A stretch of DNA of 64,000 nt, taken from the NCBI GenBank assembly GCA_017308135.1, contig JAFKFM010000008.1, forward strand, positions 372,001-436,000. Direction: 5' to 3'. Under the pieces are notes generated by a model that saw only the letters and a program-made list of their open reading frames with translations, was not told the origin of the DNA and made no database searches. This document shows, one piece after another, positions 27,427-33,839 of the stretch. Position 1 is the first letter of the stretch; every line of letters begins with the position of its first letter. Made by a program: the position numbers and the translations under genes. Source of the stretch: Alphaproteobacteria bacterium. GTDB taxonomy: Bacteria > Pseudomonadota > Alphaproteobacteria > CACIAM-22H2.

Positions 27427-28605
27427 ATGACATTGATCGTCGAGTCCGCCCCGCTGGCGGCGTTCTGCGCCAAGGCGGCCGCGTCCAGTTACGTCACCGT
27501 CGATACCGAGTTCATGCGGGATAAGACCTATTACCCGCAGCTTTGCCTCGTGCAGGTCGCGGGCGAGGACGATGCCGCCGTGATCGACGCGCTGGCCCCG
27601 GGGCTGGACCTTTCGCCGCTGCTGGCGCTGATGGACAACCCGGCCGTCCTCAAAGTGTTCCACGCGGCGCGCCAGGATTTGGAAATCTTCCATAACCTTA
27701 CCGGCCGCGTCCCCGCCCCGTTGTTCGATACGCAAGTCGCGGCGATGGTGTGCGGCTTCGGCGAACAGGTCAGCTACGAAAACCTCGCCGCCCAGCTCGC
27801 CCGCGCGCGGATCGACAAATCGGTGCGTTTCACCGATTGGGCGCAACGCCCGTTGTCGGCCAAGCAGATCAGCTACGCGTTGTCGGACGTGACGCATCTG
27901 CGCCCGGCCTACGAGGCGCTCGCCCGCAAGCTCGGCCAAAGCGGCCGTGCCGGCTGGCTCGCCGAGGAAATGGCGATCCTGATGGATCCCGCGACCTATC
28001 GCGCGGACCCGGAGGAAGTCTGGCGGCGCATGAAGCCGCGCGGCGCCAAGCCGCGTTTCCTCGCGATCCTGAAGGAAGTCTGCGCCTGGCGCGAACGCGA
28101 GGCCCAGCGCCGCGACACGCCGCGCAACCGCGTGGTGCGCGACGAAACGATCCTCGACGTGGCCGCACACGCGCCGGAATCGCTGGAAGATCTCGCGCGC
28201 ATGCGCGGCATCAATCGCGGCTTCACCGAAGGCCGCCTCGGCCAGGAGATGATGGAAGCGGTCAAGCGCGGCTTGGCCACCCCGGTCGACAAAGCGCCCG
28301 CCTTGCCGGAATCGCCCGATCTGCCGCCGGGCCTCGGGCCCGTGGTCGAGCTCCTTAAAGTGCTCCTCAAAATGAAATGCGAGGAACATGGTGTGGCGCA
28401 GAAGCTCGTTGCGACCACGGCGGATTTGGAGCGCATCGCGGCCGACGACGTCGCCGACGTGCCTGCCCTTCAGGGCTGGCGGCGCGAAGTGTTCGGCGAA
28501 GCCGCCCTCGATATGAAGGCGGGCCGGCTCGGCTTCACGCTGAAAGGCAAAAAGATCGTGCTGATGCGCCTGGACGGCGCCGCGACGGCGGTCGCTTCGA
28601 CTTAA
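27427..28605 (+). CDS. rnd: Ribonuclease D
   Basis: DEDD-family 3'-5' exoribonuclease involved in tRNA 3'-end trimming. The 392-residue protein has the Exo I motif [14 protein letters not shown] (about 22-35, acidic D and E), Exo II around [11 protein letters not shown] (about 78-88), Exo III with [10 protein letters not shown] (about 150-160), and HRDC helices after about residue 210. Residues in all three motifs are intact. An AAGG box lies just ahead of ATG 27427. It overlaps the end of a small convergent gene by four bases. Confidence 0.95.
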
Positions 28606-28894: not shown

Positions 28895-29575
28895 TCACTT
28901 CGCCGCGTAAGCATCCAAAAAGATGCGTAAATCCGAAAACGCCGCATCGCGTACGGCTTTGTTATGGGCACTGGCCGCACTCGACCGCCAAAACGCCCAG
29001 CCGGGGCCGACATCGTCGAACCCGTGCGAGGCCCCGCCATAGCGGACCGCCAAAACCTTATCCGCGTCTTGCGCGCGGCTGACGGCGGCCAAGCAGGTCT
29101 CCGGCGGGGCGACGGTATCGTTTTCCCCCATCATCAACAGCACGGGGCCGGTCGGGCGCCATTCGCGAAGCCCCGCGCAAGAAGGATAGAACGCAGCGGC
29201 CGAACGCACGCCGGTGCGCGCCATGGCGACAAGGACCGACGCCCCGCCTTCCGCCCAGCCGACCAGATGCAGCCGCGTACGATCGACACCCGGCACGGCG
29301 GCAAGCCGCAGCACGGCGCGTTCGATCGCCGGCACGCCCGCGGCGGCATCGTCCGCCCGGCAAGCCCCCGACGGCCAATCGAGCGTGGCAACCGCGAAAC
29401 CCGATTGCGTCAAATCCTGCGCGGCACGCGTAATGTGATCGCCGGGCCCCGCGCAGCTGGGCACGAGCAGCACCGCGCCGAAGGGTCCGGCGCGCAAAGG
29501 TGTGGCGATCGGGTTCGGGCGCGCGCACGCGGTCAACGCCATCGCGGCGGCGAACAGAGCGAGGATGGTTTTCAT
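28895..29575 (-). CDS. Alpha/beta-hydrolase-like lipoprotein lacking the nucleophile
   Basis: 226 residues. A signal peptide ends in LTAC, giving a lipid-anchored Cys17. The rest follows the dienelactone-hydrolase fold. The nucleophile elbow reads GWAEGG (106-111) so Ala108 stands where Ser or Cys is expected; the later Asp153 (GENDTVAPP) and His184 (SHGFD) are kept. It should therefore not be a normal hydrolase and may bind a ligand or use another residue. The stop of ppx overlaps its start by four bases (ATGA), so it is part of the ppk1-ppx operon. Confidence 0.7.
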   Translation of the reverse strand: MKTILALFAAAMALTACARPNPIATPLRAGPFGAVLLVPSCAGPGDHITRAAQDLTQSGFAVATLDWPSGACRADDAAAGVPAIERAVLRLAAVPGVDRTRLHLVGWAEGGASVLVAMARTGVRSAAAFYPSCAGLREWRPTGPVLLMMGENDTVAPPETCLAAVSRAQDADKVLAVRYGGASHGFDDVGPGWAFWRSSAASAHNKAVRDAAFSDLRIFLDAYAAK

Positions 29576-31068
29576 CGCGGCCGGATACGCGGTTTCTTGT
29601 CGAAGGCCGAAGCGACGGATTCAAGCCGCCGCCCGACCATCTCGCCCACCATGCCGACATCGCGCTTGGGCACTTCGAGGATAAGCTCGCGGCCGTCCAT
29701 AACGAGCCGCGTGCGCGCGAGCACGGCCGACGCCCCGCCCGACAGGCGATAGGCAAGCCGCAACGCGAGCCCCAAGCGGAACGCCTCGCGCAACGAATCC
29801 TCGTCGAGCATGCGCCAGGAAATCTGCGCGGTTTCCCCGCCCGGCTCGCCGTCGTACCGCGCGAACAAAGCGAGCGCCACATAAGCGCGGCCGGGATGGT
29901 CGATGCCCGCGACGGGCATATAGAGTGCGCGCCGATACGCGATCTCGCCGCGATGATCGGGATGCTCGCTCCAAGCGAGGTCCGACAAATGGCACGTCGC
30001 AAGGCGCAATCGCGCGCGCGATTTGTCCTTGAACAGCGGCTCGATCCAGCGCTGAAGTTCTTCCGCCTTCACGTGATAGCGGCGGTTCTGCGCGGCGATG
30101 GCGGCCACACCCGAGATCAGCGGATCCATCCGCTTCAACGCGGGGCTCAACGAATCGTAGAGGCAGCCTTCGCGCAATCCGTAGGCGGAGAAGACCAGCG
30201 TCTTGGGCTTCATCCGGCGCAATACGCGCTCCAGCACCGTCGCGGCGAGCGGGATCGTCTCCAAGCGCTTGCGCGAAATGCCGCTGAAGCCTTCGAGCGA
30301 GGCGCGGCTTTGCGTCGCCATCAATTCGAGGAAGTCGATCGCCCGATCGCGCGCGATCGTATAGTGGTGGATGATCTCGAGCCCGTAGCCCGCATGCGCC
30401 ATATGCAGCTTGGCGATCGCGCGCCATGCGCCGCCCACGGCGTAGAATTCGGCGTCACGGCCCTTGTCGAGGAAGTCGAGCGGCTTCAAACGCTCGTCGA
30501 TCATGTCTTTAAGACGCCCGCGGCCTTTTTCGGCGTATTCCTTCAAGCGCAGCGGCCCGAAGGGCAGCGTCACATAGCCGCGCGTCTTGCCTTCGCCCAG
30601 CGCCACGAGTTCGAGACTGCCGCCGCCCAGATCGCCCATCGCGCCTTGCGAGCCCGGCGTGCCGGCGAGCACGCCCAGCGCCGAGATGCGCGCTTCGTCC
30701 GCGCCCGACAGGATGCGCACGGGCAGCCCCGTGACTTTCCGCACGCGCGTGATGAATTCGGGGCCGTTGCTGGCGTCGCGCGCCGCGGCGGTGGCGAGCG
30801 CATAGGTCCGGCGCACGCCCATCGCGCGCGCAAGCTCGGCGAAGCGGCGCAGATTGACCAATGCCTGCTCGACGCCCGTTTCGTCGAGCTTGCCGGTGCG
30901 CTCGATCCCCTTGCCGAGGCCGCAGAGGACCTTCTCGTTGAACAACGGCAAGGGTACGCGGCTCGTCCCGTCGAACACGACGAGACGGATGGAGTTGGAG
31001 CCGATATCGACGACCGCGACGGGGCGCCTGTCGATGCTGACGCCGGACGTGGCGCGCCGTACCGCCAT
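29572..31068 (-). CDS. ppx: Exopolyphosphatase / guanosine pentaphosphatase (Ppx/GppA)
   Basis: A 498-residue actin-like phosphatase that removes phosphate from polyphosphate or pppGpp. The N-terminal phosphate-binding motif VVDIGSNSIRLVVFDG (about 19-34) and the second GDLGGGSLELVAL (about 146-158) match the family. The C-terminal part (from about 320) has an HD-like helical region. It is preceded by ppk1 (one base between the ORFs) and followed by the hydrolase-like lipoprotein with a four-base overlap. Whether polyphosphate or pppGpp is preferred cannot be told from sequence. Confidence 0.94.
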   Translation of the reverse strand: MAVRRATSGVSIDRRPVAVVDIGSNSIRLVVFDGTSRVPLPLFNEKVLCGLGKGIERTGKLDETGVEQALVNLRRFAELARAMGVRRTYALATAAARDASNGPEFITRVRKVTGLPVRILSGADEARISALGVLAGTPGSQGAMGDLGGGSLELVALGEGKTRGYVTLPFGPLRLKEYAEKGRGRLKDMIDERLKPLDFLDKGRDAEFYAVGGAWRAIAKLHMAHAGYGLEIIHHYTIARDRAIDFLELMATQSRASLEGFSGISRKRLETIPLAATVLERVLRRMKPKTLVFSAYGLREGCLYDSLSPALKRMDPLISGVAAIAAQNRRYHVKAEELQRWIEPLFKDKSRARLRLATCHLSDLAWSEHPDHRGEIAYRRALYMPVAGIDHPGRAYVALALFARYDGEPGGETAQISWRMLDEDSLREAFRLGLALRLAYRLSGGASAVLARTRLVMDGRELILEVPKRDVGMVGEMVGRRLESVASAFDKKPRIRPR

Positions 31069-31069
31069 C

Positions 31070-33223
31070 TCAATCTTTCGGTTTGGTTTTGACCTTGGCC
31101 TTGCCCGGCTTGTGAAGCGCCTTGCCGCGACCGGAGAGCGAAGGATTGGTCATGAAGAACTCGTGCGCACTGAACGCGTCGGCCCCGCATTCGAGGCGTT
31201 TGTAGTCGCCCGCCGAATCGAGAACCCAAGTTTGCGCCACGTCGCGCAGGTTCGCCACCATGATCTGGTCTTGGATCTGCTCGTGAACCGTCGGGTTTTC
31301 GATCGGCACGAAGGTTTCGACGCGCCAGTCGAGATTGCGCGGCATCCAATCGGCCGACGAAATGAACAGCTTCGATTCCGGATGCGGCAAGCCGAACCCG
31401 TTGCCGAAGCACACGACGCGCCCGTGCTCCAGGAACCGGCCGACCAAGCTGCGCACGCGGATATTCTCCGACATGCCCTTCACGCCGGGCCGCAGACAGC
31501 AAATGCCGCGGATCACCAGATCGATCTGCACGCCGGCGTTGCTCGCCTCGTACAGCTTGTCGATGATCCTGGCGTCGACCAGCGCGTTCATCTTCGCCCA
31601 GATCGCCGCCGGGCGGCCCGCCTTGGCGTGCGCGATCTCCGCGTCGATATGCTTCACCAGCGTCGCGCGCAGGGTCAGCGGCGCGAAGGCGAGCTTCTCC
31701 ATCGCCTCGGGCTTGGCGTAGCCGGTCATGAAGTTGAACAGGCGCGCGGCGTCGGAGCACAGGCCCGGATCGCAGGAGAAGAACGACAGGTCCGTATAGA
31801 TGCGCGCGGTGATCGGGTGGTAGTTGCCCGTGCCGAAATGCACGTAGGATCGCAAGGCCGGGCCTTCGCGGCGCACGACGTAGGAAATCTTCGCGTGCGT
31901 CTTCAAATCCATGAAGCCGTACACGACCTGCGCGCCCGCGCGTTCCAGATCGCGCGCCCAGCGGATATTCGCTTCCTCGTCGAAGCGCGCTTTCAGTTCG
32001 ACCATCGCCGTGACCGACTTGCCGCTTTCGGCGGCTTCGACCAAAGCGCGCACGATCGGCGAGTTATCCGACGTGCGATAGAGCGTCTGCTTGATCGCCA
32101 CGACCGCCGGATCGCGCGCCGCCTGGCGCAGGAACTGGACGACGACGTCGAAGCTCTCGTACGGGTGATGGACGACGATATCCTTGTGGCGGATCGCCGC
32201 GAAGCAATCGCCGCCGAAATCGCGGATACGTTCGGGGAAGCGCGGGTTATAGGGCGGAAACAGCAGATCCGCGCGTTCGGACAGCACGAGCTGCTTCAAA
32301 TCGGCCATGCCGAGCATGCCGCCCAGGCGGAAGCAATCCTCGGGCTTCACTTCCAATTCGCTCAGCACGAAATTCTGCAGATCCTCGGGCATTTCCGCGT
32401 CGAAGGCCAAGCGGATCACCTCGCCCCGCCGGCGGCGCTTCAAGGCGCTTTCGAACACGCGCACGAGATCCTCCGCTTCCTCGTCGATTTCCATTTCGGA
32501 ATCGCGCAACAGGCGGAAGCGGCCGGCGGCCTTCGTTTCGAAGCCCGGGAACAACGTGCCGAGGTTGAGGCGGATCGTCTCCTCGACCGGGATGAAGCGG
32601 ATCGTCTTCCCCGGCAGGCGGACGAAACGTTCGACCTGCTGGGGCACGGGGATCAACGCTTGCAGCACGCGGCTATCGGTCGGCGAAACAAGCCGCGCGA
32701 CGAGGGCAAGCCCCTTGTTCTGAATGAACGGGAACGGGTGTGCCGGGTCGATCGCCAGCGGCGTCAGGACCGGAAATATCGCTTCCTGGAAACGCTGTGC
32801 CAGGAACGCGCGATCGTCGTCGCTGAGCTCGCTCGGCCCCACGACCGCGATGCCCGCGGCGCGAAGCTCCGCGACCAGTTCCATCCACACGTTCTGTTGA
32901 ACGTTCATCAACTGGCCCGCGCGCCGGTTGATCGCGGCGAGCGCTTGGGCGGGCGACAAACCGTCTTCCGACGGCGTGGTCACACCTGCGGCGACCTGGC
33001 CCTTCAGCCCGGCGACGCGCACCATATAGAACTCGTCGAGATTCGACGCCGAGATCGACAGGAAGCGCAGCCGCTCCAACAGCGGATGGTGATGATTGGC
33101 GCATTCCTCGATCACGCGCTCGTTGAACGCGAGCCAGGACAGCTCGCGATTGATGTAGCGCGACGTTTCGATCTCGCCGATGTCGACCCGCTCGGGGGTC
33201 CTGCTCTCGCCGTCCACGGTCAT
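31070..33223 (-). CDS. ppk1: Polyphosphate kinase 1
   Basis: Makes polyphosphate from ATP through a phosphohistidine. The 717-residue protein has the PPK N-domain ([16 protein letters not shown], about 22-37), middle domain, and the catalytic C1/C2 domains: the autophosphorylated histidine is in [16 protein letters not shown] (about 445), and HFGTGNYHP follows about 30 residues later. Length is normal. ppx follows directly, a common arrangement for balancing polyphosphate. The gene is divergent from sixA (82 bases). Confidence 0.97.
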
Positions 33224-33305: not shown

Positions 33306-33839
33306 TTGAAACCCAAGCGACTTTTCCTGCTCCGGCACGCGAAATCCGCGTGGGACGACCCGTTCGTCCAGGATTTCGATCGTGACCTCAACAAGCGCGG
33401 GCGCAAGGCGGCGCGCGGCCTTTCCAAGTGGCTGGAAAACAAGGGTTATACGCCCGATTTGGTGCTGTGCTCGGCGGCGTTGCGCACGCGCCAGACCCTG
33501 GAATTGACCCAAGAGGGGTTCGGCGGCCGCCCCGAAATCTCGATCGAGAAGCGGCTTTACCTGGCCGATGTCGAGGATTTGCGCCGGCGCCTGGCCGAAC
33601 TCGACCGGCGCAGCCCCTGCCCGGACGCCGTGCTGATGATCGGCCATAATCCGGGGCTGGAGGAATTCGCCCTCGACCTGATCCCGCCGGCCGAGGCCGA
33701 CACGCGCGCGCGCATCGCCGCGAAATTCCCGACCTGCGCCTTCGTCGCCTTGCGCTTTGCCGATTGCCCGTGGGGCTCGATCGGGCCCGCGCGCGCCACG
33801 CTCGAAGCCTACCGCATCCCCGCCGACGACGAGGATTGA
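33306..33839 (+). CDS. sixA: Phosphohistidine phosphatase SixA-like
   Basis: A 177-residue histidine-phosphatase-superfamily protein with the RHA signature at residues 10-12 (LLRHAKSAW; catalytic His11), the RTRQTLEL segment (about 60-67) and the second catalytic His in MIGHNPGLEEFA (about 116-127). SixA removes phosphate from histidine phosphotransfer proteins such as ArcB HPt or PTS components. There is no ATG; TTG at 33306 is the only start that keeps the N-terminal beta strand. Its 3' end overlaps the convergent PAS gene by 31 bases. Confidence 0.88.
   Translation: MKPKRLFLLRHAKSAWDDPFVQDFDRDLNKRGRKAARGLSKWLENKGYTPDLVLCSAALRTRQTLELTQEGFGGRPEISIEKRLYLADVEDLRRRLAELDRRSPCPDAVLMIGHNPGLEEFALDLIPPAEADTRARIAAKFPTCAFVALRFADCPWGSIGPARATLEAYRIPADDED

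Follow-up and report, generated by a model that had tools for sequence, protein, structure and literature searches.

In a genus of Tagaea-like Rhodospirillales, the polyphosphate genes ppk1 and ppx are followed by a gene for a predicted lipoprotein with the fold of an esterase, in which the position of the catalytic nucleophile is held in most genomes by Ala or Gly. In the window, the 64,000-nucleotide stretch of DNA analysed here, the gene occupies 28895..29575 on the minus strand and encodes 226 residues from an ATG start. The favoured explanation, given a probability of about 0.6, is an esterase-derived, lipid-anchored pseudoenzyme that was captured once behind ppx, is probably co-expressed with it, and uses its old pocket or surface to bind something in the envelope. 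Its ancestor would have belonged to the dienelactone-hydrolase (DLH)/PETase-like esterase family.

The lipoprotein begins with MKTILALFAAAMALTACARP, a lipoprotein-type signal with Cys17 in the lipobox LTA-C17, which bears out the lipid anchor proposed in the first-pass annotation of this DNA. Lipobox-like sequences, read by eye, are also present in the orthologues. Judged from this signal, the protein should face the periplasm. Lipoprotein sorting in Escherichia coli follows the +2 residue, a rule that may not apply to the present host; under that rule, the Ala at +2 would point to the outer membrane.

The same annotation described an alpha/beta-hydrolase fold that keeps its Asp and His and has Ala108 at the nucleophile, and Pfam, an AlphaFold2 model and structure alignment all agree with it. 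The 226-residue protein matches DLH (PF01738; E=6.5e-10, 39.4 bits, cut-off 21) and, with a lower score, PETase (PF12740; E=4e-8, 33.4 bits, cut-off 28). The solved structures closest in sequence are PBS(A)/PET depolymerases and DLH proteins, 8c65 being the best sequence match (E 2.7e-9). The model, built with 11 relatives as input, has a pLDDT of 85 and a pTM of 0.84, and DLH and related esterases align to it with Z about 21-24 and an rmsd of 2.5-3.2. A strand at 97-107 is followed by a helix at 108-121, the pattern of a nucleophile elbow. Since the motif GWAEGG (residues 106-111, codons at 29243..29260, minus strand) sits at the strand-helix turn 107/108, Ala108 (GCG, 29252-29254) corresponds to the nucleophile. 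The triad partners Asp153 (GENDTV) and His184 (ASHGFD) are retained. By descent the lipoprotein is a member of the DLH family; with Ala108 it lacks the Cys or Ser nucleophile and is, by the usual criterion as read from sequence, non-catalytic.

Other residues were considered as replacements or markers of lost activity and set aside. No conserved Ser lies close to the elbow, and Cys41, Cys72, Cys133 and Cys161 are kept in Ser-bearing homologues too, so these cysteines look structural; disulfides are possibly formed among them and may stabilise the protein. Pro39, at a position that is His in most homologues, was considered as a breaker of the oxyanion hole and dropped, as PETase-type enzymes also carry VPG there. 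Pro39 by itself is no mark of inactivity.

The polyphosphate genes of the window lie on the same strand. The gene for polyphosphate kinase 1 (ppk1, 717 residues, 31070..33223, minus strand) ends just before the start of that for exopolyphosphatase (ppx, 498 residues, 29572..31068, minus strand), and both products are recognised by Pfam and NCBIfam. As previously claimed, the stop codon of ppx overlaps the start of the lipoprotein gene by exactly 4 nt, in the ATGA at 29572..29575 (minus strand). A convergent ribonuclease D-like gene, rnd (27427..28605, plus strand), marks the ppx-rnd junction of other genera, the site that the lipoprotein gene occupies in this genus. A scan for promoters and terminators gave no signal above chance. 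A histidine phosphatase (SixA-like) gene (33306-33839, plus strand) is divergent from ppk1, and occupies this position in each of the six further ppx-linked loci from the genus that were covered with longer flanks. In titles and abstracts of the open-access literature, no description of a lipoprotein in ppk-ppx operons was found.

The genus was sampled through ten genomes besides the window's own, a small set that includes several metagenome-assembled genomes; named records among the ppx-linked genomes are Tagaea sp. CACIAM 22H2 and several Rhodospirillales MAGs. The lipoprotein gene lies immediately behind ppx, with an intact reading frame, in all eight genomes that have a complete ppx, and the pairing is thus conserved within the genus. 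Counting from the earliest available start codon, the two genes overlap by 4 nt in G000, G009 and G010 and by 1 nt in G007 and G008, and are separated by 2 nt in G002, G003 and G004. The G001 contig breaks off within ppx, and neither ppk1 nor ppx was found in the G005 and G006 assemblies. Because ppx is incomplete or the polyphosphate genes are absent from these assemblies, the three genomes are no counter-evidence to the pairing. In G005 (94% complete; L128, contig C42), rnd-aspS is kept, with a nucleotidyltransferase-like gene beside rnd, and the lipoprotein gene is absent along with ppk1 and ppx; the whole polyphosphate locus has possibly been lost.

Outside the genus the association ends. 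Ten genomes from four other genera of the family contain ppk1-ppx. The convergent rnd comes directly next in most of them, with some 700 nt intervening in genus g7, and the at least 1.5 kb searched behind ppx contained nothing that matched the lipoprotein. With ppk1-ppx present in these genera and the lipoprotein gene missing, the simplest history would be that the genus ancestor acquired it once, by insertion between the convergent ppx and rnd. Beyond this genus, the closest relatives are a trio of lipoproteins, with Ala at position 108 in G033 and isolate SJ623 and Ser in SO-S41, and none has its gene near ppx. The SO-S41 gene shares 4 nt with a fumarylacetoacetase-like gene, and in SJ623 the gene lies about 25 nt after a 2-oxoglutarate oxygenase-like gene (both neighbours named from sequence reading), while in G033 several hundred bases separate it from the preceding gene. 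In the first two genomes the gene appears to sit at the tail of unrelated transcription units, suggesting that it settles wherever it can be expressed. Searches with clade profiles in 385 alphaproteobacterial and 398 Pseudomonadota genomes returned no members beyond G033 and an edge case, G301; the remaining matches were weak, with E about 1e-36 at best.

These distributions bear on a stronger version of the link to ppx, in which the coupling is itself functional and the lipoprotein serves as a sensor or binding protein for polyphosphate, for a product of phosphate stress or for an envelope partner. Stop/start-coupled linkage in 8/8 genomes, despite divergence of the lipoproteins to about 40% identity, is consistent with such a role, as are the joint absence of all three genes from the G005 assembly that keeps rnd and the clade-invariant basic residues Arg178 and His103. 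However, one deletion or an assembly gap would explain the G005 pattern, and a tail gene may simply remain at its landing site. The relatives beyond the genus are not near ppx, the other ppk1-ppx genera do without the gene, and linkage to ppk1/ppx beyond one genus, expected of a polyphosphate-pathway component, is lacking. Polyphosphate-pathway enzymes are cytoplasmic. Ppx begins with MAVRRATSGVSIDRRPVAVVDIGSN, where no signal peptide was seen by eye, whereas the lipoprotein carries one; a direct complex between the two is improbable, as they would reside in different compartments. A functional coupling of this kind is accordingly judged unlikely, and a polyphosphate-specific role is a guess from gene position. 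Were the tie functional, an envelope component would have been added to a pathway of cytoplasmic enzymes. The first-pass annotation had envisaged a non-catalytic partner for polyphosphate genes: the apparent lack of catalysis and the coupling to ppx stand within the genus, while a general partnership does not, as other genera have no such lipoprotein.

Residue 108 has a varied history. The earlier proposal would have been undermined if most homologues at the locus kept Ser or Cys; instead, seven of the eight ppx-linked orthologues have no nucleophile. Ala is not fixed, but is present in four (G000, G009, G007 and G008), with Gly in three (G002, G003 and G004) and Ser in one (G010). In 43 outgroup homologues the same column holds 41 Ser and 2 Ala, so nucleophile loss is concentrated in the lipoprotein clade. 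DLH homologues with Ala at the nucleophile position also occur outside the clade, L095 (G380) and L075 (G011), with the elbows GWANGA and GFADGG; losses have thus taken place elsewhere in the family.

When residue 108 was masked, a 22-protein tree recovered the clade with bootstrap/SH-aLRT support of 100/100 with G301 and 96/91 without it. Over the whole tree, four changes between Ser and non-Ser are required at this residue, of which one falls in the outgroup. Two histories fit: several losses of Ser, or a single loss with Ser restored in G010 and SO-S41. The Ser codon TCG of G010 is one base from the GCG of its Ala-bearing sisters. The Gly codons GGA/GGG are one base from GCA/GCG and two from TCN, and Gly108 therefore probably arose via Ala. 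G010 (L003 / L081) is the sole ppx-linked orthologue with Ser and a full Ser-Asp-His set, and represents either a reversion or an enzyme that was retained. Since it and the distant SO-S41 keep Ser together with Asp and His, catalysis may persist in some of the clade. Loss of catalytic residues has gone furthest in the ppx-linked G007 (L004 / L082), where Ala108 is accompanied by Pro in place of His184 in an open frame.

The changeable residue 108 could also be taken as the mark of a relaxed remnant, an unneeded esterase heading for loss, and the lipoprotein does diverge faster than ppx (91% versus 98.6% identity in the same pair). Its dN/dS is nonetheless well below 1 in two lineages, at 0.075-0.09 for G000 and G009, the pair formed with the closest orthologue of the window ORF, and 0.11-0.17 in the Gly-bearing trio; the estimates are restricted to close pairs, as synonymous sites are saturated in deeper ones. 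Values of about 0.08-0.17 argue against decay, as do the frames intact in 8/8 genomes and the invariance of the four cysteines and about 30 alignment columns. The lipoprotein is under purifying selection, though faster-evolving than Ppx, whose gene has a dN/dS of about 0.02-0.035 in G000/G009. Decay of an unneeded gene is already disfavoured and is the least probable of the readings weighed here. The orthologues and dN/dS also rule out a chance or antisense ORF at 28895-29575.

What selection maintains could still be an enzyme, one that works without the elbow nucleophile through water activated by His184-Asp153 or through a new set involving His103 and Arg178. Asp153 is present in 11/11 clade members and His184 in 10/11, the VPG oxyanion-loop motif is shared with PETase-type enzymes such as 8c65, and His103, Arg178 and Asp215 are invariant in the clade and rare or absent outside it (Val38-Pro39 behave alike, and Ser125 and Ala127, also rare or absent outside, are nearly invariant). 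Against such chemistry, G007 has replaced His184 by Pro with its gene intact, and residue 108 switches between Ala, Gly and Ser. With Gly106, Trp107, Gly110 and Gly111 invariant around this variable position, the elbow looks retained for structure rather than chemistry. A rewired hydrolase is doubtful on this evidence, somewhat more so than a functional polyphosphate coupling. Equally doubtful is the proposal that the clade-specific His103, Arg178 and Asp215 form a new binding site through which an envelope pseudo-esterase, recruited to the polyphosphate operon, relays phosphate or polyphosphate state.

The preferred reading of a captured pseudoenzyme with a binding role can be put as a sequence of steps. 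The lipoprotein would be translated as the final gene of ppk1-ppx, so that its supply tracks expression of the polyphosphate genes; the tie to polyphosphate would then consist of shared expression, without contact with Ppx. The protein would sit on the periplasmic side of the envelope, perhaps at the outer membrane, and would use its old substrate pocket or surface to bind a ligand or another protein instead of carrying out hydrolysis.

Among known systems, the DLH family (PF01738) shares with the lipoprotein its fold, the Asp and His triad partners and the position of the elbow, with a Pfam score above the cut-off. It differs in its Cys or Ser nucleophile, where the lipoprotein has Ala, and in that the lipoprotein is lipid-anchored. 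The four conserved cysteines also set the lipoprotein apart from the DLH family, and also occur in the majority of the Ser-bearing homologues gathered from Alphaproteobacteria. PETase and PBS(A) depolymerase-like polyesterases (PF12740; PDB 8c65, 6eqd) resemble it in sequence and in the VPG of the oxyanion loop, but have a catalytic Ser, and polyester cleavage forms no part of the present case. The ppk1-ppx operons of the family's other genera have the same gene order, with the third gene seen in the present genus only.

Pseudoenzymes with the alpha/beta-hydrolase fold seem little described in bacteria; none was recognised in a full-text literature search. In the small clade described here, most members no longer have the nucleophile while selection is maintained, and close relatives that bear Ser are at hand. 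The function of a dead esterase thus becomes addressable by single-residue swaps in natural protein pairs. In eukaryotes, neuroligins and the C-terminal domain of thyroglobulin are alpha/beta-hydrolase folds that have no functional triad and serve in binding (PMC5943944). These proteins belong to the cholinesterase-like branch and have no specific kinship with the lipoprotein, for which they serve as an analogy.
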